Part shown: positions 542 to 11,067 of the stretch, piece after piece
Numbering within the stretch: the first letter of the stretch is position 1
How the letters are laid out: every line of letters starts with the position of its first letter
NCBI GenBank assembly: GCA_944382785.1
Contig: CALWNO010000021.1
Location: 1 to 43,130 of the forward strand
DNA: 43,130 nt
From: an uncultured Gemmiger sp.
GTDB taxonomy: Bacteria; Bacillota; Clostridia; Oscillospirales; Ruminococcaceae
Direction of reading: 5' to 3'
The notes under the pieces: generated by a model
Databases searched by the model: none
What the model saw: only the letters and a program-made list of their open reading frames with translations
Told to the model about the DNA's origin: nothing
Program-made: the position numbers and the translations under genes

Positions 542-1816
542 TTATACAAGGGCCCGGCACTCGTTATAGTAGCGTTTTTCCTCGGCGTGGCCCATGCTGA
601 AGGTCTTGCGGGGCAGCACCCCGCCCAGCACCACACCCCGGAACAGGTCCGCCTTTTCAAAGGGCGGCAGCAGGATGGCGGTGGCCTTTTCCCCCGCCAG
701 ACTGCAGGCTGCCACCTGGCCGTGGATATAATCCACCCGGCAGGCGGGGTTTTGGGCGCACAGGTCGGTGAGGAAAGCCTCCACCGTGCCCACGGCCAAC
801 GGCCGGGGCGCATCGTCCAACGTGTACCGCCGGGCCATGGTGGGGCCAAAAATGGTAAAGGTCTGTACCGGCATGCGGCCGGTGGACTTGTGCTGTGCAC
901 TCCAGGCATCGAAGGCCTCGCACACCTCCCGGACCCCCATGCCGAAGATCACCCGATGGATGGGTTCGATCTCGATGGCCGGGGAATGGACGTTGCACAC
1001 TTCCGCCAGGCAGTATCGGGCCGGATGGGCGGCCTGTTCCTCCGGTGTGAGGGTAGGTTTCAGTTCCTCCCAGTAGGCCTTGGCGGTGGCCAGGGAGTGG
1101 TTGCCGTCCCCCACCGCCAGCACCATGGGCGGCTGGCCGGCTGCGCCCGGCCAACGGGCGGCAAAGGCCGCGGCATCTCCCAGAGCAGTGAGAGCCCTGT
1201 CGATCCGGTCGATGAGGGCAGGGTCTTCCACCGCCCAGCCGGCCAGATGGCCGCCGCCCAGCATCAGGTCTCCCTCATACAGGCAGGGCAGTTCGGCTTT
1301 ATGGGCGGCGATGGGCTCGATCAGGGTACATCTTTCATCATCGGCCAGCATCATCACATGGGGCGTTTCCAGCTCTGCCCCCCGGCGGATGGCCAGGCGG
1401 GGCGGAATGCGCTCCACCACCGTGTTTTCACTGGGACGGATGGGCGTCTTGGCCCCGGGCTCATAGCTGTAGGCTTCCAGGTCCACCATGCCCACCAGAC
1501 CCTGGCGGACGGTGCCGTCCAGCTGGGTGCGCTCCACATACACGTATCCGTGTACATGGCGGGTGAGCACACTGCGGCGGTAGTCGGCCATGGCGGCGCG
1601 GATCTCTTTCAGCCGCAGCTCTTCCCCGGGCGTGCCCAGATAGGCTTCAGGCAGAACGATATGCAGGGTGCTGGGATGCCCGGCAGCACAGGCTTCCGCC
1701 CGCTCCCAGTACTCCGGCTGAGAGGTGAACTGATCCACCGCAATGCTAGCCCAGGGGTCCAGCGGAACCGAGGGGTCGGGCAACAGAATATCAGCCGACA
1801 AAAAGCAGTTGGACAT
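542..1816 (-). CDS. DUF1015 family protein
   Basis: A 424-residue soluble protein matching the DUF1015 family. It starts with the typical segment on the protein's own address (ADILLPDP), continues with PWASIAVDQFTSQPEYW, and near residue 250 has GDGNHSLATAK, the family's counterpart of the DGHHR-type motif. I chose ATG at 1816 because CGGAG lies nine bases upstream; an in-frame TTG at 1825 has no spaced ribosome site. The family's biochemical role is not established; in other genomes it sits near serine or one-carbon genes, but nothing here supports that. It lies between the Rnf-like genes and the low-complexity gene, all in one direction, with a 34-base gap after rnfA. Confidence 0.85.
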   Translation of the reverse strand: MSNCFLSADILLPDPSVPLDPWASIAVDQFTSQPEYWERAEACAAGHPSTLHIVLPEAYLGTPGEELRLKEIRAAMADYRRSVLTRHVHGYVYVERTQLDGTVRQGLVGMVDLEAYSYEPGAKTPIRPSENTVVERIPPRLAIRRGAELETPHVMMLADDERCTLIEPIAAHKAELPCLYEGDLMLGGGHLAGWAVEDPALIDRIDRALTALGDAAAFAARWPGAAGQPPMVLAVGDGNHSLATAKAYWEELKPTLTPEEQAAHPARYCLAEVCNVHSPAIEIEPIHRVIFGMGVREVCEAFDAWSAQHKSTGRMPVQTFTIFGPTMARRYTLDDAPRPLAVGTVEAFLTDLCAQNPACRVDYIHGQVAACSLAGEKATAILLPPFEKADLFRGVVLGGVLPRKTFSMGHAEEKRYYNECRALV

Positions 1817-1850
1817 TGGTATCAACTCCGATTTCAGACTGAGCGCCGTC

Positions 1851-2501
1851 TTACCGGGCGACGCCGTGACCCACCAGGCCGTAAATGGCCAGGGACAGAA
1901 TACCGATATAGATCAGGTAGCTGGGCAGTCCCCGGAAGATGGTGGGGATATCCTTACTGCCCAGACGCCGGCGGCCTTCATCCACCACCAGCACCGCAAA
2001 CAGATAGCCCAGACCGCTGCCGAGCCCGAAGGCGGTGGACTGCAGCAGGTCATAGTTTTGGTTGGAGCAGAGCAGCAGCGTGCCCAGCACGCTGCAGGTG
2101 CAGGTGGCCAGGGGCAGCTGTTCCCGGCAGGCGACCCGGTGGGCGGCGGGCAGAATGCCCAGCAGCACCCACACCACCGCCATGGCCAGGACCGCACAGG
2201 TCAGGTAAAGAATGGGACGCAGAGAAGCCACCGGAAGCCAGTCCGGCAGATACAGCGGCAGCAGGGGTGCAACGTAAGTCATGCAGGCCCAGCCCAGGGG
2301 TGCGCTGAACAGCTGTACCAGAATCACCGGGGTGCAGTATTGCCAGGTGCGCACTTCGGGGTCGCCCACCAGTTTGATCAGCCGGGAAACACCCATGGCG
2401 CGGGAGAAAACCACGTTTTCCGCAAAGACGGCCAGAACGGCGTAGGAAAGGAACTGCGCCACGCTCTGGAACACCGTGAGATCAGTGCTTACGGTCAGCA
2501 T
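1851..2501 (-). CDS. rnfA: RnfA-like integral membrane subunit
   Basis: A 216-residue polytopic protein of the RnfA/RnfE (NqrD/NqrE) family, with about six membrane segments. Recognisable RnfA features are the N-terminal FAENVVFSRAMG, the LPLATCTCSVLG stretch (129-140) and the C-terminal KDIPTIFRGLPSYLIYIGILSL. The start is ATG at 2501, behind GAGGAGGTG, and it overlaps the 3' end of the upstream rnfE by 20 bases. In canonical RnfA one Cys in an LGxCP-type motif and one in an NC motif bind an intramembrane [2Fe-2S] cluster. Here the first is Ser39 (MGVSR), while Cys136 is kept. It is about 20 residues longer than usual. The family call is firm, but participation in a true Rnf complex is doubtful because B, C and G subunits are absent nearby. 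Confidence 0.8.
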   Translation of the reverse strand: MLTVSTDLTVFQSVAQFLSYAVLAVFAENVVFSRAMGVSRLIKLVGDPEVRTWQYCTPVILVQLFSAPLGWACMTYVAPLLPLYLPDWLPVASLRPILYLTCAVLAMAVVWVLLGILPAAHRVACREQLPLATCTCSVLGTLLLCSNQNYDLLQSTAFGLGSGLGYLFAVLVVDEGRRRLGSKDIPTIFRGLPSYLIYIGILSLAIYGLVGHGVAR

Positions 2502-3411
2502 ACAGGTGACGCACCTCCTCCTGTTTGTAACGCACATAGGCACCGGCCACGGCGGTCCAGCCGGCGGCCACCAGACCCAGCAGCAGGAAGCCTCCCGCAG
2601 GCTGAGCGGCCAGAGGCAGCAGTCCCACCGGCAGCACCGATCTTTCAAACACGGTGCCGTAGGCCAGTAGTTCCCGCAGGCACCCCACCAGCAGAATGGC
2701 AATGCACAGGCCGATGGTGTTGTTGATGCCCTTGCGGAAAGCTTCGCCGATGGTTTCCAGCTCGGTGGCTTCCATGCGCTTGACGATGACCGGCTCCACC
2801 ACCATCATGGGCAGATAAATGCCCATGATGGACAGATTGGTGCCGAAAATATTGTACATGATGATATACACCGGGATATACAGGACGGCGGCGGCATAGG
2901 CATACACCACCGGGCGGAACCGGTTGCCGGTGATATGGCAGACGGCCACCGCCAACATACGGGTGGCGGTGAGCAGCAGAACAGACAGCACACACAGCAT
3001 GAGAGCACGGTCGCCGTCACTGGCCATGGCCACGATGGGCGCCAGACCCAGGCCGCGGACCATGACCGGGTTGTTCAGCCACAGATGGTCGTCGTGGATG
3101 CTCTGAGCCAGTTCTGCCTCCGCCTCTGCCCGGGTCTTGCGGGCCTTGGCCTGGGGTTTGGGCTGGGGCTGGGGTTTGGGCTGGACGGCCTGCTCCCCGG
3201 CAGCCTGGGCTGCCTGCTGGGCAGCGGCTGCGGCGGCTTCCTCGTCGATCTGCTGCGGGGTCTTGCCCTCGGCGGCAGCACGGCGGGCACGCTCCAGCAC
3301 TTCGGGAGAAAGCTGGGGAATAATGACAGTCTGGGAATGTTCCGGCTGGTTTTTCTTGCGCACATTGCGCCCGGTCGGCTTAGAGGGCTTCCGGTTTTGC
3401 TCGTTTTGCAA
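2482..3411 (-). CDS. rnfE: RnfE-like membrane subunit with long N-terminal extension
   Basis: A 309-residue protein. Residues 1 to about 105 form a charged, Ala/Gln/Pro/Lys-rich tail, and residues about 110-300 are an RnfE/NqrD-like membrane domain (NNPVMVRGLGLAP, IMGIYLPMMVVEP, CLRELLAYGT). Canonical RnfE is near 200 residues, so the tail is an addition. The start is TTG at 3411, supported by AAGGAGG nine bases upstream inside the end of rnfD. The next ATG lies inside the membrane domain and would delete it. Both expected [2Fe-2S] cysteines are replaced: Ala124 in LGLAP and Pro207 in LPMMVVEP. The gene overlaps rnfD by 32 bases and rnfA by 20 bases, so translation is probably coupled. Confidence 0.8.
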   Translation of the reverse strand: MQNEQNRKPSKPTGRNVRKKNQPEHSQTVIIPQLSPEVLERARRAAAEGKTPQQIDEEAAAAAAQQAAQAAGEQAVQPKPQPQPKPQAKARKTRAEAEAELAQSIHDDHLWLNNPVMVRGLGLAPIVAMASDGDRALMLCVLSVLLLTATRMLAVAVCHITGNRFRPVVYAYAAAVLYIPVYIIMYNIFGTNLSIMGIYLPMMVVEPVIVKRMEATELETIGEAFRKGINNTIGLCIAILLVGCLRELLAYGTVFERSVLPVGLLPLAAQPAGGFLLLGLVAAGWTAVAGAYVRYKQEEVRHLYADRKH

Positions 3412-4405
3412 GCCGTTTCGCCTCCTTCTTCATGAACTTCATCCGCTCCGCACGGCGGGACACCCGGTCCAGCCATTCGGGCACGGCGCCCACGATGAGC
3501 AACGCGAAGCAGACGCCGGTCTCATAGACGGTATTGTAGCGGAACACGGTGGTAGCCAGTCCCAACAGCAGGCCGTAGATGATCCGGCTGGCAACGCGGT
3601 TGGGCTGGGTGACCGGTTCACAGATCAGGAATACCCCGCCGAAGGCCATACCCCCGGTGAGCAGGATATACTTTTCCAGATAGACGCGCTGGCGGATATA
3701 CTCCCAGGGGAAACTGAACGCCGGCAGATCGTTGAGGTTGGGCAGCAGCCAGGGCACCGCCACACAGACAAGCAGGTAAGGCAGCAGGGTGGACAGTTTC
3801 AGATGCCCCCGGCAGAGCAGGAACAGCCCGCAGGCCACAATGACCAGGAAAGCCCCGGTGCCCAGCGGACCGGTGACGTTGCCGGTGAGCAGATTCATGG
3901 TGGTGGCCGAAGGCAGACCGCCGCTGGACAGGGTGGTGTTCATGCCGGCGGTGAGGGTATCGGAGGTAAGTCCCCACAGGGGCAGCACAGTGCCGGGGGT
4001 GGGATACCGGGTCATCTGGTTTGGCCAGGAGAGGGCAGCCACCGCCACGCCCACCGCAGCCGGGTGGAAGGGATAGTGGCCCTCGCCGCCGAAGGTCTCC
4101 TTGATGAGCACCGCCACAATGACCGCGGCAACCACCATGAAGTAGGAGACCGAGGCCGGCATCATGAGCACGATGAGGGCGGCAAAACATTCACTGGACG
4201 GCTCATGGGGCCGGTAACCCGCGCCGTGCAGCGGGGTGACCAGACAGTCGCAGACATAGGCGGTGAACAGACCCACCAGCATGAGCAGAATCGGCCGCGG
4301 GCCATAGAAAAACCAGGCCATGGCCATGAGCGGGACACAGCACCAGAGCACGTCTGCATAATAGTTGTAGTTGGCGCTTCGCTCAATCTTGTAACGGTTT
4401 GGCAT
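3380..4405 (-). CDS. rnfD: RnfD-like (NqrB family) membrane subunit
   Basis: A 341-residue polytopic protein of the RnfD/NqrB family with about nine hydrophobic segments. Typical features are ETFGGEGHYPFHPAAVGVA (103-121), the EPVTQP loop (263-268) and a basic C-terminus. Canonical RnfD carries FMN covalently on a Thr in a D-x-x-S-G-A-T type motif. The matching place here reads GGLPSATT (162-169): the threonines remain but the leading Asp and the Gly do not, so flavinylation is uncertain. ATG at 4405 follows AAAGGAGAG. It is the first of three overlapping genes in order D, E, A, which is the canonical rnfCDGEAB order with C, G and B removed. It lies 39 bases after rpe. Confidence 0.85.
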   Translation of the reverse strand: MPNRYKIERSANYNYYADVLWCCVPLMAMAWFFYGPRPILLMLVGLFTAYVCDCLVTPLHGAGYRPHEPSSECFAALIVLMMPASVSYFMVVAAVIVAVLIKETFGGEGHYPFHPAAVGVAVAALSWPNQMTRYPTPGTVLPLWGLTSDTLTAGMNTTLSSGGLPSATTMNLLTGNVTGPLGTGAFLVIVACGLFLLCRGHLKLSTLLPYLLVCVAVPWLLPNLNDLPAFSFPWEYIRQRVYLEKYILLTGGMAFGGVFLICEPVTQPNRVASRIIYGLLLGLATTVFRYNTVYETGVCFALLIVGAVPEWLDRVSRRAERMKFMKKEAKRLAKRAKPEAL

Positions 4406-4444
4406 AAGCTCTCCTTTGCTGCCCGAACTGCGGGCGGGGGCCGC

Positions 4445-5107
4445 TTACAGGGCGTGGATGTCCGTCACCATGGCGGACATATCGGGTGCTTTGTACAGGG
4501 CGCTGCCCACCACCAGGACATCCGCCCCTGCCTGCGTGCACAGAGGGGCCGTCTGGGTGTTGACGCCGCCGTCCACCTGCAGCATGGTGGAAAGGCCCCG
4601 GCGATCCAGCTCCGCCCGCACGGCGGCCAGGCGTTCGGGGGTGCCGGGCAGGAAGGCCTGCCCGCCGAATCCCGGTTCCACACTCATGATGAGAACCAGG
4701 TCCACCTCATCCAGATAGGGGAACAGTTTTTCCACCACGGTGCCGGGACGGATGCTCAGGCCGGTCTTGCAGCCCAGGGCCCGGATGGTGCGCAGCACCC
4801 CCAGCGGGTCCCGGCTTACCCCTTCGGCTTCCAGATGCACGGTGATCAGATCGGCCCCCGCCGCGGCAAAATCCTTGGCAAAGAAAGCCGGATCATCGAT
4901 CATCAGGTGCACGTCATAGAAGGCATGCGGCAGAGCGCTGTGCAGGCATTTGAGTACCGGCGCCCCGTAGCTGATGTTGGGCACGAAATGGCCGTCCATC
5001 ACATCGATGTGCAGCATATCCGCACCGGCATCCAGGGCGGCACGGCTCTGTGCGGCCAGATTGGCCAGGTCAGCCGAAAGGACCGACACGCTCAGTTTTG
5101 TTTGCAT
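4445..5107 (-). CDS. rpe: Ribulose-phosphate 3-epimerase
   Basis: A cytosolic 220-residue TIM barrel that interconverts ribulose-5-phosphate and xylulose-5-phosphate in the pentose phosphate pathway. All family motifs are present: SVLSADLANL, HIDVMDGHFVPNIS, DVHLMI, VEPGFGGQ and VDGGVN, including the metal-binding His and Asp residues of HIDVMDG and DVHLM. The start is ATG at 5107 behind AAAGGAAAG. A longer frame to 5200 has no better ribosome site and would add a non-conserved tail. It is the first gene after a promoter at 5179-5207, and the Rnf-like genes follow it. The length is normal. Confidence 0.95.
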   Translation of the reverse strand: MQTKLSVSVLSADLANLAAQSRAALDAGADMLHIDVMDGHFVPNISYGAPVLKCLHSALPHAFYDVHLMIDDPAFFAKDFAAAGADLITVHLEAEGVSRDPLGVLRTIRALGCKTGLSIRPGTVVEKLFPYLDEVDLVLIMSVEPGFGGQAFLPGTPERLAAVRAELDRRGLSTMLQVDGGVNTQTAPLCTQAGADVLVVGSALYKAPDMSAMVTDIHAL

Positions 5108-5178
5108 AGTGATACTTTCCTTTTTTCCTTTATACTCTTTCCCGCGCAGGCATCCCTGCGCACACTCATACATATTGT

Positions 5179-5207
5179 ATTGTACCGTAACACGGCACAA
5201 AAATCAA
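5179..5207 (-). promoter_or_regulatory. Promoter for the rpe-rnfDEA operon
   Basis: Minus strand: -35 TTGATT at 5202-5207, a 17-base spacer, and -10 TACAAT at 5179-5184. The leader of about 65 bases holds a small hairpin (GCGCAGG/CCTGCGC). It is placed just downstream of the glf terminator, so it likely starts a new transcript. Confidence 0.6.
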
Positions 5208-5233
5208 ATACTTATCGCGGGTCCCTGTCTGGA

Positions 5234-5277
5234 AAATCAGGCGGCAGCCCTATGGATACAGGGCTGCCGCCTGATTT
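5234..5277 (-). terminator. Rho-independent terminator after glf
   Basis: Perfect 18-bp inverted repeat (arms 5234-5251 and 5260-5277, 8-base loop). On the minus strand it lies about 20 bases past the glf stop and its right arm ends in a short T run, closing the polysaccharide operon. Confidence 0.8.
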
Positions 5278-5297
5278 GTAAAAATTTCAGAACCCTA

Positions 5298-6434
5298 TCA
5301 ATTGTCGTACTGGTTGATCTTGTCCAGCTGCACCCGTACGCATTCCAGGGCACTCTCGATGACCTTGTCCATGTCATAGTAGCGGTATTCGCCCAGACGG
5401 CCGCCGAAAACCACATGAGGTTCGGCGTCGGCCATGGCCTTGTAACGGGCATACAGCGCATTATTCTGCTCGTCGTTCACCGGGTAGTAGGGCTCGTCCC
5501 CGGGCTTCCACTCGGCGGAGTATTCCCGGCTGATGACCGTCTTGGTGCCCGGTTCGGTGGAGCCGAACTCAAAATGCTTGTGCTCGATGATGCGGGTATA
5601 GGGCGTCTCGGCGTCGGTATAGTTGATGACTGCGTTGCCCTGGTAGTTGGGGCAGTCCAGCACCTCGGTCTCAAACCGGACGCTGCGATACTGCAAGGCA
5701 CCCAACGCATAATCGAAGTAGGCGTCGATGGGACCGGTGTAGATCACCCGGCCGGCCAGGGCATCCAGCTCCGCCTTGTTCTGCAGGTAGTTCACACCCA
5801 GGCGGACCTCAATGCCGTGGAGCATCTTTTCCACCATGGCGGTGTAGCCGCCGTTGGGAATGCCCTGGTACAGGGCGTTGAAATAGTTGTTGTCAAAGGT
5901 CAGGCGCACCGGCAGCCGCTTGATGATGAAGGCGGGCAGCTGGTCACAGGGGCGGCCCCACTGCTTTTCGGTATAGCCTTTGATGAGCTTTTCATAGATA
6001 TCGGTACCCACCAGGTTGATGGCCTGTTCTTCCAGGTTTTTGGGCTCGGCAGTGAAGTGGGCAGCCCGCTGTTCGGCGATCTTGGCTTCAGCCTGGGCCG
6101 GGGTGATGACCCCCCACATCTTGTTGAAGGTATTCATGTTGAAGGGCATGTTGTACAGTTCGCCCTTGTAGTTGGCCACCGGAGAGTTGGTGTACCGGTT
6201 GAATACCGCAAAGTTGTTCACATAGTCCCACACCTTCTTGTTGTTGGTGTGGAAGATATGGGCACCATACTTGTGGACGTTGATACCGGCGATGTTTTCG
6301 GTGTAGATGTTGCCGGCGATGTGGTCCCGCTTGTCGATCACCAGGCAGGTACGGCCCGCTTTGGTGGCCTCATGGGCGAACACCGCGCCGAACAGACCGG
6401 CGCCGACAATAAGATAATCATACTGTTTTGCCAT
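5298..6434 (-). CDS. glf: UDP-galactopyranose mutase
   Basis: A 378-residue flavoenzyme that converts UDP-galactopyranose to UDP-galactofuranose, the donor for galactofuranose in surface glycans. The N-terminal FAD-binding motif is VGAGLFGAVFAHEA (10-23). The family segments YGAHIFHTNN, YNMPFNMNTFNKMWG, GYTEKQWG, RLPVRLTFDNNYF and GRLGEYRYYDMDKVI are present in order. ATG at 6434 follows a perfect AAGGAGG. A longer frame to 6596 overlaps the upstream glycosyltransferase and is not a credible start. It overlaps the GT2 gene by 17 bases and is the last gene of the polysaccharide operon. No obvious galactofuranosyltransferase lies beside it, although one of the neighbouring GTs could act as one. 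Confidence 0.95.
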   Translation of the reverse strand: MAKQYDYLIVGAGLFGAVFAHEATKAGRTCLVIDKRDHIAGNIYTENIAGINVHKYGAHIFHTNNKKVWDYVNNFAVFNRYTNSPVANYKGELYNMPFNMNTFNKMWGVITPAQAEAKIAEQRAAHFTAEPKNLEEQAINLVGTDIYEKLIKGYTEKQWGRPCDQLPAFIIKRLPVRLTFDNNYFNALYQGIPNGGYTAMVEKMLHGIEVRLGVNYLQNKAELDALAGRVIYTGPIDAYFDYALGALQYRSVRFETEVLDCPNYQGNAVINYTDAETPYTRIIEHKHFEFGSTEPGTKTVISREYSAEWKPGDEPYYPVNDEQNNALYARYKAMADAEPHVVFGGRLGEYRYYDMDKVIESALECVRVQLDKINQYDN

Positions 6435-7404
6435 CGGAATTGACCTCCTTGTGATGGGAAGGGTCCAGGGCGGCGGCTTCCCGCTTCCAGCGTTCGGCCT
6501 GCTGCAGCTTGAACTCAAAATCACGAGCGTCCTGGGCCAGAAGGCTGGACAGAATGACGCCCGAAATAAACAACAGAAGCGCCGCCACCATACCACAGGT
6601 GCAGACGATCAGGGTGGGGAACCGGGGCACCAGACCGGTACGGAAGTATTCCGCCACCACCGGCACCATAAACCCGGCGCTGACCAGGGCCAGCAGCACC
6701 GCAAGAGTCGTAAAGAAAGCGAAGGGACGATAATTTTTATACAGCCGGGCAATGGTGCGCAGCACCTTGGCACCGTCGCTGTAGGTGTTGAGCTTGGAGA
6801 CGCTGCCCTGGGGGCGGTCCCGGTACTCGATGACCACGTTTTCGATCTGCATCCGGCGCTCCACCGCGTGGATGGACATTTCAGTCTCGATCTCAAAGCC
6901 CCGGGACAAAACCGGGTAGGTTTTTACGAACTGAAAGCTGAAAGCCCGATAGCCGGTCATGATGTCCTGGATCTGGCTGCCGAACAGCCGGTTGATGGAA
7001 AACCGGACCAGACTGTTGCCGAAATTGTGGAAGGGGCGTTTGTTTTCGGTGAAATAGGTGCTGGAAAGCCGGTCCCCCACCACCATATCCGCCCCCCGCT
7101 CCAGCACAGGGCGCACCATGTCGGGGGCGGCGGGGGCCGGGTAGGTATCGTCGCCGTCCACCAGCAGGTAGCATTCTGCGTCGATCTCCCGGAACATCCG
7201 GCGCAGCACGTTTCCCTTGCCCTGCTGATACTCGTGGCGCACCACTGCGCCGGCTTCGGCGGCCAGGACAGCGGTGCGGTCGGTAGAGTTGTTGTCGTAC
7301 ACATAGATGGTGGCTTGGGGCAGTACAGCCCGATAGTCGGACACCACCTTGGCCACCGTCTTTTCCTCATTGTAACAGGGGATCAGCACTGCGATCTTGT
7401 CCAT
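6418..7404 (-). CDS. Family 2 glycosyltransferase, polyprenyl-phosphate sugar synthase type
   Basis: A 328-residue GT-A fold enzyme. The N-terminal catalytic domain shows LIPCYNEEKTV, DNNSTDRT and the metal/nucleotide site VDGDDTYP, then GYRAFS and ETEMSIHA. Two hydrophobic segments follow near residues 232-255 and 268-290, with a charged cytoplasmic tail. This layout is that of dolichyl-phosphate mannose synthase-like or GtrB-like enzymes that load a sugar onto a polyprenyl phosphate. The actual sugar is unknown. ATG at 7404 follows AGGGGAGAAGG. The gene lies 16 bases after a GT4 gene and overlaps glf, so it belongs to the same operon. A GT-C enzyme using its product could be the membrane protein at 11177-13249 (inference). 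Confidence 0.85.
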   Translation of the reverse strand: MDKIAVLIPCYNEEKTVAKVVSDYRAVLPQATIYVYDNNSTDRTAVLAAEAGAVVRHEYQQGKGNVLRRMFREIDAECYLLVDGDDTYPAPAAPDMVRPVLERGADMVVGDRLSSTYFTENKRPFHNFGNSLVRFSINRLFGSQIQDIMTGYRAFSFQFVKTYPVLSRGFEIETEMSIHAVERRMQIENVVIEYRDRPQGSVSKLNTYSDGAKVLRTIARLYKNYRPFAFFTTLAVLLALVSAGFMVPVVAEYFRTGLVPRFPTLIVCTCGMVAALLLFISGVILSSLLAQDARDFEFKLQQAERWKREAAALDPSHHKEVNSDGKTV

Positions 7405-7420
7405 ACCCTTCTCCCCTTTC

Positions 7421-8473
7421 TTACTGGGCGGCAAAACGGCGGATCTCCTCCAGCCAGAAAGCCGCCGTCACCGGCCAGCTGTATTTCTGCAAAATGGCCT
7501 GGGGCGACTCCACCGGCCGGGCCATGAGCTCGTCCAGATCCACGTCGTAATCATACGGATCAAAATACCGCACCGTGTTGCCGTACAGTTCCGGCAGGCA
7601 GGAGGCGTTGGACACCGCCACCTGAGCCCCCAGGCTGAGAGCTTCCAGAGGCGGGATGCCGAAGCCTTCAAACACCGCCGGGTGCAGGAAGGCCCGGCAG
7701 TTCTGCATCAGGGCCTTGTTCTCCCCGTCCGAAACATATCCGGGATAGTGCAGGTTGCCGGCGCTGACCGCCTTCTCGTCATCCCCGAAAGCGGCCAGGT
7801 CCTTGCCCCCGGCCACCACAAAGGTCTTGTCCGGGTTGCGGGCGGCCACCTCCCGGATCCATTTATAGTTCTTGTGTCCGGCCAGGCTGCCCAGGGCGTA
7901 GAAGTACTCCCCTTTGCGCACGCCGGGCAGTTTGTCGAACACTCCTTCGTCCGGTTCCACCGGCTGCAGGTGTTCCCAGCCGTTGTAGGTCAGACCGATG
8001 CGGGCGGTGGGGATGTGCAGGGTGTCGGCAATGAGCTGGCGCTGGTTGTCGCTGACCGTGTACACCCGCTGGGCAAAGGCCTTGATGCTCAGGCAGTGTA
8101 CCCAGAACTTGAACCGGAAAAAGGCCCGGTCAGTGTTCATGACCAGGGGCCGGATATCGTGCAGCACCACAGCGCTGGGGCGGCCCATGAGCATATCACT
8201 GGCCAGGCCCAGGTAAAAAGCATCGTGTTTGCGCACATACCGGGGCAGAACAAACAGGTTGTAGCTGTATTTGACGGCCTTGAGGGGCACGATCTGAATA
8301 TTTTTCAGCGGCGGCAGATGCAAAGGACGGCCGTCGTCCCGGTAGCACAGCCGCACATCCAGCCCCGTGCCGGTGAGCAGTTCGTCCAGACGGGTCACGA
8401 CCTCATAGACATAGCGCGGAATCCCGGTGATGGGGTCACACAACACCGTGCCGTTGATCACGATGGGTCTCAA
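7421..8473 (-). CDS. Family 4 (GT1-type) glycosyltransferase
   Basis: A 350-residue GT-B fold glycosyltransferase. The C-terminal half carries the GT4 signature FLHPAVFEGFGIPPLEALSL with the acid EGFGIPPLE, and earlier YALGSLAGHKN, the usual nucleotide-binding strand. The N-terminus reads PIVINGTVLCDPITGIPRY, where the glycine-rich loop contacts the acceptor. The start is TTG at 8473: GGAGG lies seven bases upstream, and TTGA forms a four-base overlap with the stop of the preceding GT4 gene. No ATG fits. The donor is unknown; the family often uses GDP-mannose or UDP-sugars. It acts on the inner membrane face in the polysaccharide operon. Confidence 0.85.
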   Translation of the reverse strand: MRPIVINGTVLCDPITGIPRYVYEVVTRLDELLTGTGLDVRLCYRDDGRPLHLPPLKNIQIVPLKAVKYSYNLFVLPRYVRKHDAFYLGLASDMLMGRPSAVVLHDIRPLVMNTDRAFFRFKFWVHCLSIKAFAQRVYTVSDNQRQLIADTLHIPTARIGLTYNGWEHLQPVEPDEGVFDKLPGVRKGEYFYALGSLAGHKNYKWIREVAARNPDKTFVVAGGKDLAAFGDDEKAVSAGNLHYPGYVSDGENKALMQNCRAFLHPAVFEGFGIPPLEALSLGAQVAVSNASCLPELYGNTVRYFDPYDYDVDLDELMARPVESPQAILQKYSWPVTAAFWLEEIRRFAAQ

Positions 8474-9624
8474 GTTGTTTCCTCCTTCGGCAGATGGGCA
8501 CAATTCTGCAGTTCCCGGCGCCAGTCCGCGACCCGGCGGGCGCAGTAGTCCCGCAGCTGGGCCTCGAACCGTTCCTCGCTGAACTGCAGGCTGTGGGCAC
8601 GGATTTCCTCCTTGGAGCAGGCCACGCCCTCGGCCTCGAATTTTTCGATACATTCGGCCAGGCTGTCCACCGTCTGGGCGTGGAAGAGCAGGCCGGTGCG
8701 GCCATCCTCCACCGTCTCGCAGGCGCCGCCCCGGCCATAGGCCAGCACCGGAGTACCGGCGCTCTGGGCTTCCACCGGGGTGATGCCGAAATCTTCCTCC
8801 CCGGGGAAAAGAAAAGCCTTGGCCCGCAGGTAGTAACTCCGCACTTCCTCGTCCGAAAGGCCACCGCCCTTGAACTCCACGGTGGGGCCGGCCATGGATT
8901 TCAGATGGGATTGCTCATCTCCGGTGCCGATGACCACCAGCCGCCTGCCCAGCTTGGTGCAGGCCGCCACAGCCAGGTCCATCCGCTTGTACCAGGTAAA
9001 CCGGCCCACCACCAGATAAAAATCTTCCTTTTCCACAAAGGGGCTCTGGTTGATGTGCACACAGGGATAGATCACATCGCTGTCCCGGCGGTAGTATTTC
9101 TTGATGCGCTGGGCGATATAGCGGGAATTGGCAATGAAATAGTCCACCCGATCGGCGGCGCACCGGTCCCACTGACGCAGCTTGTGCATCTGGCCGGGCA
9201 TGACCGCTTTCACCAACGGGTTGGCGTTGGCACGATAGGTATAATAAAAATCCCACACGTACCGGATAGGGGTGTGGCAATAGCAGATGTGCACCGCATC
9301 CGGCCGAGTAATGACCCCCTTGCTGCAGGAGGAAGAAGAAGACAGCACCAGGTCGTATTCCGACAGATCCAGGGCCTCAAAGGCTCCGGGCATCAGAGGA
9401 AGCAGTTTTTTGTACAGTTTGGTGGCAAAGGGGATCTTCTGTACCCAGGTAGTGCGGATGTCATAGTCCCGGAACCAGGACGGCATCTTTTTCTCGTCAT
9501 AGACAAGGGTATAGATGGGGGCATCAGGGAACACATGGTGCATGCAGTCCACCACACGGTCGGCGCCTGCATAGGACACCAGCCAGTCGTGCACGATGGC
9601 GACCTTGAGCTTGTTGTTTTGCAT
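8470..9624 (-). CDS. Family 4 glycosyltransferase (WbaZ-like)
   Basis: A 384-residue GT-B enzyme starting KVAIVHDWLVSYAGADRV, the form seen in WbaZ-type mannosyltransferases. CYCHTPIRYVWDFYY, ANSRYIAQRIKKYY, VVGRFTWYKRMDLAV and the GT4 signature FPGEEDFGITPVEAQSAGTP follow in order. ATG at 9624 sits behind AAAGGAGG. It overlaps the next GT4 gene by four bases and follows the sugar transferase by 36 bases. It probably adds an early sugar of the repeat unit on the cytoplasmic face. The donor cannot be read from the sequence; mannose is a guess from the family. Confidence 0.87.
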   Translation of the reverse strand: MQNNKLKVAIVHDWLVSYAGADRVVDCMHHVFPDAPIYTLVYDEKKMPSWFRDYDIRTTWVQKIPFATKLYKKLLPLMPGAFEALDLSEYDLVLSSSSSCSKGVITRPDAVHICYCHTPIRYVWDFYYTYRANANPLVKAVMPGQMHKLRQWDRCAADRVDYFIANSRYIAQRIKKYYRRDSDVIYPCVHINQSPFVEKEDFYLVVGRFTWYKRMDLAVAACTKLGRRLVVIGTGDEQSHLKSMAGPTVEFKGGGLSDEEVRSYYLRAKAFLFPGEEDFGITPVEAQSAGTPVLAYGRGGACETVEDGRTGLLFHAQTVDSLAECIEKFEAEGVACSKEEIRAHSLQFSEERFEAQLRDYCARRVADWRRELQNCAHLPKEETT

Positions 9625-9660
9625 TGGCTGCCTCCTTTGGGATTTGCCGGAACGGGCAGT

Positions 9661-11067
9661 TCAGACGAGCTTTTCGTCATTGATCATCTTGCCGCCGAAT
9701 GCGGTGCGGAAGATGATCTTGATATCCAGGGCCAGGGTCCAGTTTTCGATATACCAGATATCGTACCGGATACGCTCGGCAATATCGGTATCCCCCCGCA
9801 GGCCGTTGACCTGGGCCCAGCCGGTCACGCCGGGGCGCACCTGCTGGCGCACCAGATACCGGGGGATTTCCTCCTTGAAATGCTCCACATGGAAGGGCAC
9901 TTCCGGCCGGGGGCCCACCAGGCTCATGTCCCCTTTCAGCACATTGAAGAACTGGGGCAACTCGTCCAGGCTGAACTTGCGGATAAAGCTGCCGAACCGG
10001 GTCTTGCGGGGGTCGGCGTTGGTGCTCCAGCCGGTTTTCTCGTCCGTGTTCACCCGCATGGACCGGAACTTGTACATCATGAACTCTTTTTTGTTCAACC
10101 CCACCCGCTTCTGGCAGAAGATGACGGGACCCGGGCTGGACAGCTTGACCCCGATGGCCACCGCCAGCATGACCGGGCTGGTGAGCACAATGAGGAACAG
10201 ACTGCCCAGAATGTCGAACAGACGCTTGGCAAAGGCATTGAGGATGTTGTCAAAGGGCGTCTGCCGCACATTGATGAGCTTGCAGCTGCCCAACACGTCG
10301 ATGGTGGGCCGGGCGGGCATGTAATCATTGTAGAAAGGCAGCATGGTGATGCGCAGGCCCTGCTTGTCACAGGCAGCCAGGGCATGGGGGATCATCTGCA
10401 TCTCCTCGGCGTCCAGGGCGATGACGACCTCCTCAATGCCGGGGTCGCTGAGCACCTGGTCCAGCTGGGCATAGCTGCCCTTGTAAGGAGCCTTGAGAGA
10501 GTCACTGGGGGTATCGGCCAGATAGCCGTCCACACAGTAACCATAGTAGGGGTTCTGTTCCAGGGCCAGCAGGTACTGGGCGGCCGCCTTGCCGCCCCCC
10601 ACCAGCAGCACGTGGTGGAAGTCCAGTCCCTGGCGGTGGCGCCACCGGTCATACCAGCGGCGCAGCAGCCGCTTGATGATGAGGAAGCCGGTGCCGAACA
10701 CATAGAACAGAATCACCACCAGACGGGAGAAGTTGACCACCCGGAACTGGTAGAGCAGGGCCTCAAAGCCCAGGATGCACACCGCGTTTACCAGCAGGAT
10801 CAACCGGCAGCGCCGCCAGAATCCCCGCAGGCGGGAGGCATCGTACAATCCGCACAGCCAAAAGACAGCCACCGCCACCACCGCATACACCGCCCCGGCA
10901 AAAGCCGTTTCCTGGGCGATATCCAGAGCGGGACCGGCGCCGCCGGGCTGGAAAAAGCGCAGATAGTTGAACCGCAGATGGTTGGCCAGAAGATACGCCA
11001 CGAACAGGAGCACCGCATCCAGCCCACTGCTGAACCAGGCGCGGATGCGTTTGTTCTTTTCCAGCAT
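9661..11067 (-). CDS. Initiating polyprenyl-phosphate sugar-1-phosphate transferase (WbaP/WcaJ type)
   Basis: A 468-residue enzyme that transfers a sugar-1-phosphate from a UDP-sugar to undecaprenyl phosphate, the first step of surface polysaccharide assembly. The N-terminal part has four hydrophobic segments, then a CoA-binding-like Rossmann stretch (VLLVGGGKAAAQYLLAL). The C-terminal catalytic domain has MYKFRSMRVNTD, SLDELPQFFNVL, MSLVGPRPE and RPGVTGWAQVNG, the conserved core of the family. ATG at 11067 follows AAAGGAGG. It is the first gene after a promoter at 11125-11153, upstream of two GT4s, a GT2 and glf. The full-length N-terminal module resembles WcaJ rather than the short PglC form. 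Sugar specificity is unknown. Confidence 0.92.
   Translation of the reverse strand: MLEKNKRIRAWFSSGLDAVLLFVAYLLANHLRFNYLRFFQPGGAGPALDIAQETAFAGAVYAVVAVAVFWLCGLYDASRLRGFWRRCRLILLVNAVCILGFEALLYQFRVVNFSRLVVILFYVFGTGFLIIKRLLRRWYDRWRHRQGLDFHHVLLVGGGKAAAQYLLALEQNPYYGYCVDGYLADTPSDSLKAPYKGSYAQLDQVLSDPGIEEVVIALDAEEMQMIPHALAACDKQGLRITMLPFYNDYMPARPTIDVLGSCKLINVRQTPFDNILNAFAKRLFDILGSLFLIVLTSPVMLAVAIGVKLSSPGPVIFCQKRVGLNKKEFMMYKFRSMRVNTDEKTGWSTNADPRKTRFGSFIRKFSLDELPQFFNVLKGDMSLVGPRPEVPFHVEHFKEEIPRYLVRQQVRPGVTGWAQVNGLRGDTDIAERIRYDIWYIENWTLALDIKIIFRTAFGGKMINDEKLV

Follow-up and report, generated by a model that had tools for sequence, protein, structure and literature searches.

A D-E-A membrane trio in Gemmiger, probably left in place by an Rnf operon that shed its redox parts

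What becomes of an Rnf complex when its membrane core is kept and the parts that carry electrons are not? The question is raised by three overlapping genes in a contig of an uncultured Gemmiger sp. (GCA_944382785.1, CALWNO010000021.1, positions 1 to 43,130; the whole stretch of 43,130 nucleotides is called the window here). The genes encode homologues of RnfD, RnfE and RnfA, which we call D', E' and A'. We propose that the redox function of this trio has very probably been lost and that the genes very probably originate from the Rnf of their own order; the membrane core probably has a new job that requires no electrons.

The trio and its lost cofactor sites

D', an RnfD/NqrB-like membrane subunit of 341 residues without the flavin-bearing Thr (3380..4405, minus strand), matches PF03116 at 162 bits. 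E', an RnfE/NqrD-like subunit of 309 residues (2482..3411, minus strand), and A', an RnfA/NqrE-like subunit of 216 residues counted from the ATG at 2501 (1851..2501, minus strand), match PF02508 at 89.5 and 69 bits, respectively. These matches bear out the three overlapping D, E and A homologues that the original prediction had read from the letters alone. The open reading frame of A' extends mechanically to 2702; ATG 2501 is its most likely start. All three proteins are homologous by sequence to Rnf/Nqr chains, and an AlphaFold2 model of the E' core (predicted local distance difference test score, pLDDT, 74) finds its best PDB matches in RnfE and NqrD, with template modelling (TM) scores of 0.70-0.80; for D' the model reached only pLDDT 53 and was set aside as poor. 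The trio nevertheless falls far under the NCBIfam cut-offs for rnfD, rnfE and rnfA, scoring 109, 62 and 69 bits against 207, 213 and 229. Of the six Rnf subunits encoded by a single C-D-G-E-A-B operon, the locus holds D', E' and A' only: no rnfB, rnfC or rnfG is among the genes identified in the window from 542 to 9624. Genes for NqrA, NqrC and NqrF are absent from the locus as well, no genome-wide search for these having been made.

The trio is widespread. A profile of E' matched at least 177 of 197 genomes of the family, a count in which trio and canonical RnfE are mixed. Forty loci fetched from a subset of the higher-scoring places all carry adjacent D', E' and A' genes without G, and later additions brought the set to 65 loci; two of these, L089 and L148, come from the same contigs as L010 and L013. 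The three genes overlap or nearly so across the loci, and their reading frames are uncut in 63 of the 65 (L019 and L020 start within the trio). In comparisons of the window with five Gemmiger-type loci, the ratio of nonsynonymous to synonymous substitution rates (dN/dS) is 0.045-0.17 for D', 0.10-0.28 for E' and 0.12-0.28 for A'; the trio is under purifying selection. Because of these low ratios and the recurrence of the locus in many genera, the arrangement is more than chance.

Which cofactor sites are gone? Ligand positions were mapped by phmmer alignments to solved Rnf/Nqr chains and by comparison with canonical relatives, leaving out the two repeat loci and canonical A rows shorter than 150 residues (15 remain); the counts take loci as rows, and rows are not independent events. 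In the Acetobacterium woodii structure, the ligands of the intramembrane [2Fe-2S] cluster are reported to be RnfA C25/C113 and RnfE C25/C108 (PMC11889175; this and the other papers cited are drawn on in part). A' has Ser39 at the position of RnfA C25 (codon 2385..2387; all codons given here are on the minus strand), E' has Ala124 at the position of RnfE C25 (3040..3042), and E' Glu206-Pro207 (2791..2796) align with RnfE Asn107-Cys108 in the A. woodii numbering of PMC11889175. The replacement of three of the four Cys, foreseen by eye, is thus confirmed by alignment, and A' Cys136 (2094..2096, at RnfA C113) is the sole ligand retained in the window. Across the set, Cys is found in none of 64 trio rows at either E' position and in none at the first A' position (two rows have gaps). 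At the second A' position it is found in 40 of 64, so that A' Cys136 is not a conserved remnant, although it had been singled out as the one Cys left. Canonical E rows have Cys in 35 of 35 and 34 of 35 at the two positions, and canonical A rows in 15 of 15 at both. The sole canonical E exception is L166 (genome G320, same order), an otherwise canonical-type locus whose RnfE lacks the second cluster Cys.

The flavin site of D' was predicted to be altered in the motif GGLPSATT. That was the wrong place, since the canonical Thr of the covalent flavin mononucleotide (FMN) aligns with D' Gly154 in LTAGMN (3944..3946), and therefore the site is still lost, as claimed. The Thr is present in 7 of 63 trio rows vs 35 of 35 canonical D rows. 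By our own mapping, His114 (4064..4066) and Glu263 (3617..3619) of D' occupy the positions of the riboflavin-contacting Asn and Asp of A. woodii RnfD (N123 and D249); this His/Glu pair recurs in 24 of 63 trio rows, and both N and D are kept in 18 of 63. At the position of RnfE Asn107, Glu or Asp is found in 49 of 59 rows of the trio's own family, and Asn in 5 of 5 rows of f5 (families bear codes such as f1 and f5, f5 being another family of the same order). The replacement residues are conserved within the trios. With three cluster positions devoid of Cys throughout, the flavin Thr mostly gone, and G and B absent, the prediction that the membrane scaffold was kept and the electron path lost holds.

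Origin among the Rnf operons of the order

Where did the trio come from? A search across the order (197 genomes) gave, among the matches listed, 20 loci that were fetched (227-307 bits): 13 full rnf operons (a gene for a DUF4015 protein comes after five), one locus with C, D and G only (L207), and six reduced loci. L198, L199, L204, L205 and L219 carry rnfCDGEAB plus DUF4015 and all four cluster Cys, and in L198 and L219 the gene order is rpe-C-D-G-E-A-B-DUF4015. One genus, represented by five genomes (L208 and L212-L215), has C, D, E, A and DUF4015 in all five, with G matched in four and B in three. L208 and L212 have all six rnf genes plus DUF4015 and have lost three Cys, while in L213-L215 one of G and B is missing or unmatched (L214 has an unmatched open reading frame in place of B); three of the four Cys are lost in L208, L212, L214 and L215, and all four in L213. 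Further loci carry C'-D'-E'-A' (L086, L184-L188, L192-L195, L209 and L216-L218), the RnfC-like C' preceding D' in five f5 genomes and in L086 of the trio's own family. The C' copies read have both 4Fe-4S motifs in 10 of 10 cases and the glycine-rich FMN/NAD motif in 0 of 10. In L194 and L216-L218, arranged C'-D-E'-A-DUF4015, none of the four ligand Cys is present, and a Cys of E' lies one residue earlier; their host genomes (G619, G639, G655 and G694, 90-98% complete) contain the reduced form only and no other Rnf-Nqr protein.

Read as a series, these loci would place first the loss of the intramembrane [2Fe-2S] ligands, with all six genes still there. The second loss would be that of RnfG and RnfB, along with FMN/NAD binding in RnfC; RnfC itself would have gone third, and the DUF4015 neighbour fourth, in Gemmiger. 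One further locus, L189 (3228-7972), from another family of the class, has canonical-like D, E and A directly adjacent. Its order is G-C-D-E-A-B, with G upstream of C, and it is therefore merely a rearranged Rnf operon.

The trees agree with an origin inside the order. In a tree of D+E+A (732 columns, 41 selected loci; L211, L085, L090 and L209 were excluded as long, divergent or cut), all 18 reduced rows form one clade (support 99/94), sister to L208 (99/99) and nested within the Rnf of the order (99/98), and eight canonical Rnf of the genus and family form a separate clade (100/100). When the cofactor columns are removed, the reduced rows still group together (97/97). Long branches and odd composition mark several of the reduced rows; the exact sister is therefore less certain than the nesting. 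In a tree of D only, 20 of 21 reduced forms make one clade (100/100), and the nearest full operons are L198 and L205 (87/85). Because its relatives place it as an in-situ remnant of the order's rnf operon, we conclude that a copy of the genus's canonical Rnf is not the best reading of the trio.

That canonical Rnf also exists in these bacteria. In the genome of the window, contig 20 opens with canonical rnfA-rnfB, and at the edge of contig 70 a stretch of 48 residues matches the beginning of rnfC (33 bits). No second RnfD was found in the assembly, from which most of the canonical operon must therefore be missing. The second complete operon that the original prediction suggested looking for was thus met in parts at contig ends and not as a whole. 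Among 35 genomes of the genus, 29 have both E/A pairs, two the trio pair only (G207 and G226, 88% and 86% complete), two the canonical pair only (G218 and G222) and one neither (G212); the window genome has three of the four E/A proteins. RnfC scores over its cut-off in 30 of the 35 genomes and in 42 of 46 trio genomes examined. In the majority of these genomes, electron work would fall to the other Rnf lineage.

The genes on either side of the trio recur as well. In the window, rpe (ribulose-phosphate 3-epimerase; 4445..5107, minus strand; TIGR01163, 237 bits) lies 39 bp upstream of D', and a DUF1015 protein gene (542..1825, minus strand; PF06245, 184 bits) lies 25 bp downstream of A', as the original prediction had it, so that the minus-strand series rpe, D', E', A', DUF1015 has spacings of at most 39 bp or overlaps. 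The rpe reading frame spans 5200-4445, with a likely ATG at 5107, and is the single copy found in the window genome. Among 16 relatives whose contigs are named, every one has DUF1015 after A', and rpe precedes the trio in 13; of the other three, two contigs start within the trio, and in L012 no rpe lies within 7 kb upstream. The survey of neighbours, also suggested at the outset, found rpe upstream in 62 of the 65 loci and, downstream, DUF4015 in 30, DUF1015 in 30, and either or both in 52. DUF1015 was considered as the conserved partner and rejected: it adjoins the trio only in Gemmiger and some relatives, and the recurring gene at first taken for it proved to be that of the membrane-anchored DUF4015 protein, which in many other genera stands where Gemmiger has DUF1015. 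No DUF4015 was found in 32 of 35 Gemmiger genomes, and the other three gave partial, weak matches only.

What the membrane core may do

On balance, we favour the reading that the trio is the in-place core of the order's own Rnf, with its redox function lost, and that it persists as a complex in the membrane that works without redox chemistry and perhaps transports cations. As to the transporter role by itself, we put it forward tentatively. E' and A' would keep the paired-helix fold that in Rnf opens alternately to the inside and the outside. Lacking a reducible cluster, they would bind cations through fixed residues. In derived forms a Glu or Asp lies beside the lost E' Cys (Glu206 in the window), and the complex would then act as a transporter, either cation-coupled or channel-like, and no longer as a redox pump. 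In A. woodii, RnfE Asn107 is reported to lie near the Na+ site, and autotrophic growth of an N107A strain recovered only partially (PMC11889175); together with the acidic residue of derived E' proteins, this favours a cation-handling transporter. The trio may be a transporter or a sensor, as the original prediction proposed. A more specific proposal is rather doubtful: an in-situ redox-free alternating-access transporter in which, in derived forms, E' Glu206 would attract cations as the reduced [2Fe-2S] cluster once did, with His/Glu in place of the riboflavin contacts in D' and with the intermediates still living.

Several points weigh against the descent from the order's Rnf or against cation transport. 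In the D-only tree, L194 falls outside the reduced clade, and a grouping of the reduced forms with canonical Rnf of the genus and family is not rejected by the approximately unbiased test (p-AU 0.115), nor is the other alternative examined (p-AU 0.087). The placement beside L208 could be long-branch attraction. The two 4Fe-4S motifs seen in every C' copy read imply that part of the redox kit lasted long, and the adjacency of rpe may be an inherited position. By our own mapping, A' has not retained RnfA Glu88, which belongs to the Na+ ion-pair network. Finally, RnfD of A. woodii is described, in the parts of PMC11889175 used here, as not involved in Na+ movement, and retention of D' therefore needs another reason.

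Could the core transport nothing, and instead anchor or sense for partners in the envelope, namely the exported DUF4015 protein, a response regulator, a histidine kinase and an HtrA-like protease? Besides the frequent DUF4015 gene downstream, which is likewise found after 5 of the 13 full-type rnf operons, genes for a response regulator (24 of 65), a histidine kinase (25 of 65) and HtrA (9 of 65) lie upstream of the trio. However, the stretches fetched from Gemmiger and from most basal members showed none of the latter three (L081 and L082 do contain them), and the trio persists in Gemmiger despite the scarcity of DUF4015 there. We regard a scaffold or sensor of this kind as rather unlikely.

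It is improbable that D'E'A' joins canonical RnfB, RnfC and RnfG in the same cell and passes electrons by another route. The frequency of canonical rnfC in trio genomes would permit it, as would the additional rnfC in each of two Gemmiger genomes (G219 and G220); in G220, D and G come after it, and E, A and B gave no match. Yet three of the four cluster ligands and the flavin Thr of D are gone, four genomes have the reduced form only, and G207 and G226 have the trio pair only. A slowly dying relic without function would fit the stepwise loss of subunits and sites, the branches longer than those of canonical Rnf, and a stop within the E' match of genome G632 (L211). It is nonetheless very improbable given the purifying selection, the almost uniformly uncut reading frames and the conservation of the new residues. 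Least credible of all is a duplicate of the canonical Rnf of its own genus and family that lost genes after duplication: both E/A pairs do coexist in most genomes of the genus and the D-only tree permits it, but the D+E+A tree rejects a grouping of the reduced forms with five canonical Rnf of the genus and family (a cost of 145 log units, p-AU 1e-101), and rpe and DUF4015 likewise flank full rnf operons elsewhere.

How does the trio compare with known systems? Its D, E and A are homologous to those of Rnf proper (RnfABCDGE; A. woodii 9eri and Clostridium tetanomorphum 7zc6) and follow one another likewise; unlike Rnf, it lacks B, C and G at its locus, has lost the cluster ligands and the flavin Thr of D, and scores far below the rnfD, rnfE and rnfA cut-offs. 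Its core is also homologous to that of Na+-NQR (NqrB/D/E; Vibrio cholerae 7xk3), which has itself been proposed to be the product of rnf operon duplication and gene loss (PMC4014512). Na+-NQR, however, is reported to retain the core cofactors and to have gained NqrF (PMC12174285, PMC4014512), whereas the trio has neither the sites nor an adjoining reductase gene. The NQR/RNF-like flavinylated systems of Meheust et al. 2021 (PMC8238504) are likewise partial Nqr/Rnf sets with an NqrB/RnfD homologue; as described in the parts of that paper used here, they have an NqrB-NqrF fusion and flavinylation, while D' carries PF03116 only and the trio has E', A' and no flavin site. Our literature searches, limited to open-licence papers, listed no paper on an Rnf derivative made of D, E and A only.

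The core cofactors of RNF/NQR have been described as strictly conserved (PMC12174285), whereas this branch of the Clostridia keeps a selected membrane core without cofactor sites, and its living relatives seem to hold intermediate stages. Which part of Rnf moves ions, RnfD or RnfA/E, is disputed (PMC11889175, PMC12174285), and a structural and evolutionary relationship between RnfD/NqrB and the ammonium/urea transporter family has been described (PMC12174285). The trio series offers a natural test of which Rnf parts move ions and which only electrons. There is also a consequence for annotation: because the trio genes match the RnfD, RnfE and RnfA families, annotation may assign two Rnf pumps to one genome, and to some genera a pump that they may not have.

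Neighbouring genes and further observations

The DUF4015 protein, a putative glycosyl hydrolase, is encoded after full rnf operons in several families of the order (L198 at 2162-11000, L199, L204, L205, L208 and L219), and our literature searches found no apparent description of such a gene after rnf operons. The top match of the DUF4015 profile in the PDB is 4s1a, an uncharacterised protein; DUF1015 had no PDB match, and the trio no match in PHROGs. Outside Gemmiger, L052, L053 and L059 have DUF1015 after the trio with no DUF4015 found between, and DUF4015 may therefore have been lost more than once. In L081-L088 and L145, an opposite-strand gene lies between rpe and D' or C', with a MecA match in both copies scanned (L081 and L088). 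As this MecA-like gene separates rpe from D' in basal members, co-transcription with rpe is not universal. In the window, a promoter-like candidate upstream of rpe (5179..5207, minus strand) is a weak consensus match only.

Two loci are a mirror image of the trio: L220 of G220 (4048-6862), a genome that has canonical Rnf and the trio besides, and L207 of G686 (3395-6209) each hold rnfC-D-G, and the stretches fetched around them gave no match to E, A or B. On the other side of rpe, the window at 5298-9624 encodes a UDP-galactopyranose mutase and three glycosyltransferases, likely a surface-polysaccharide cluster. Finally, the E' of Gemmiger begins with a charged, Ala/Pro/Lys/Glu-rich extension of about 105 residues (window 3411-3100, residues 1-104). 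Gemmiger formicilis has an E' homologue 85% identical to the E' of the window, and the E' reading frames of most other genera are shorter than that of Gemmiger.

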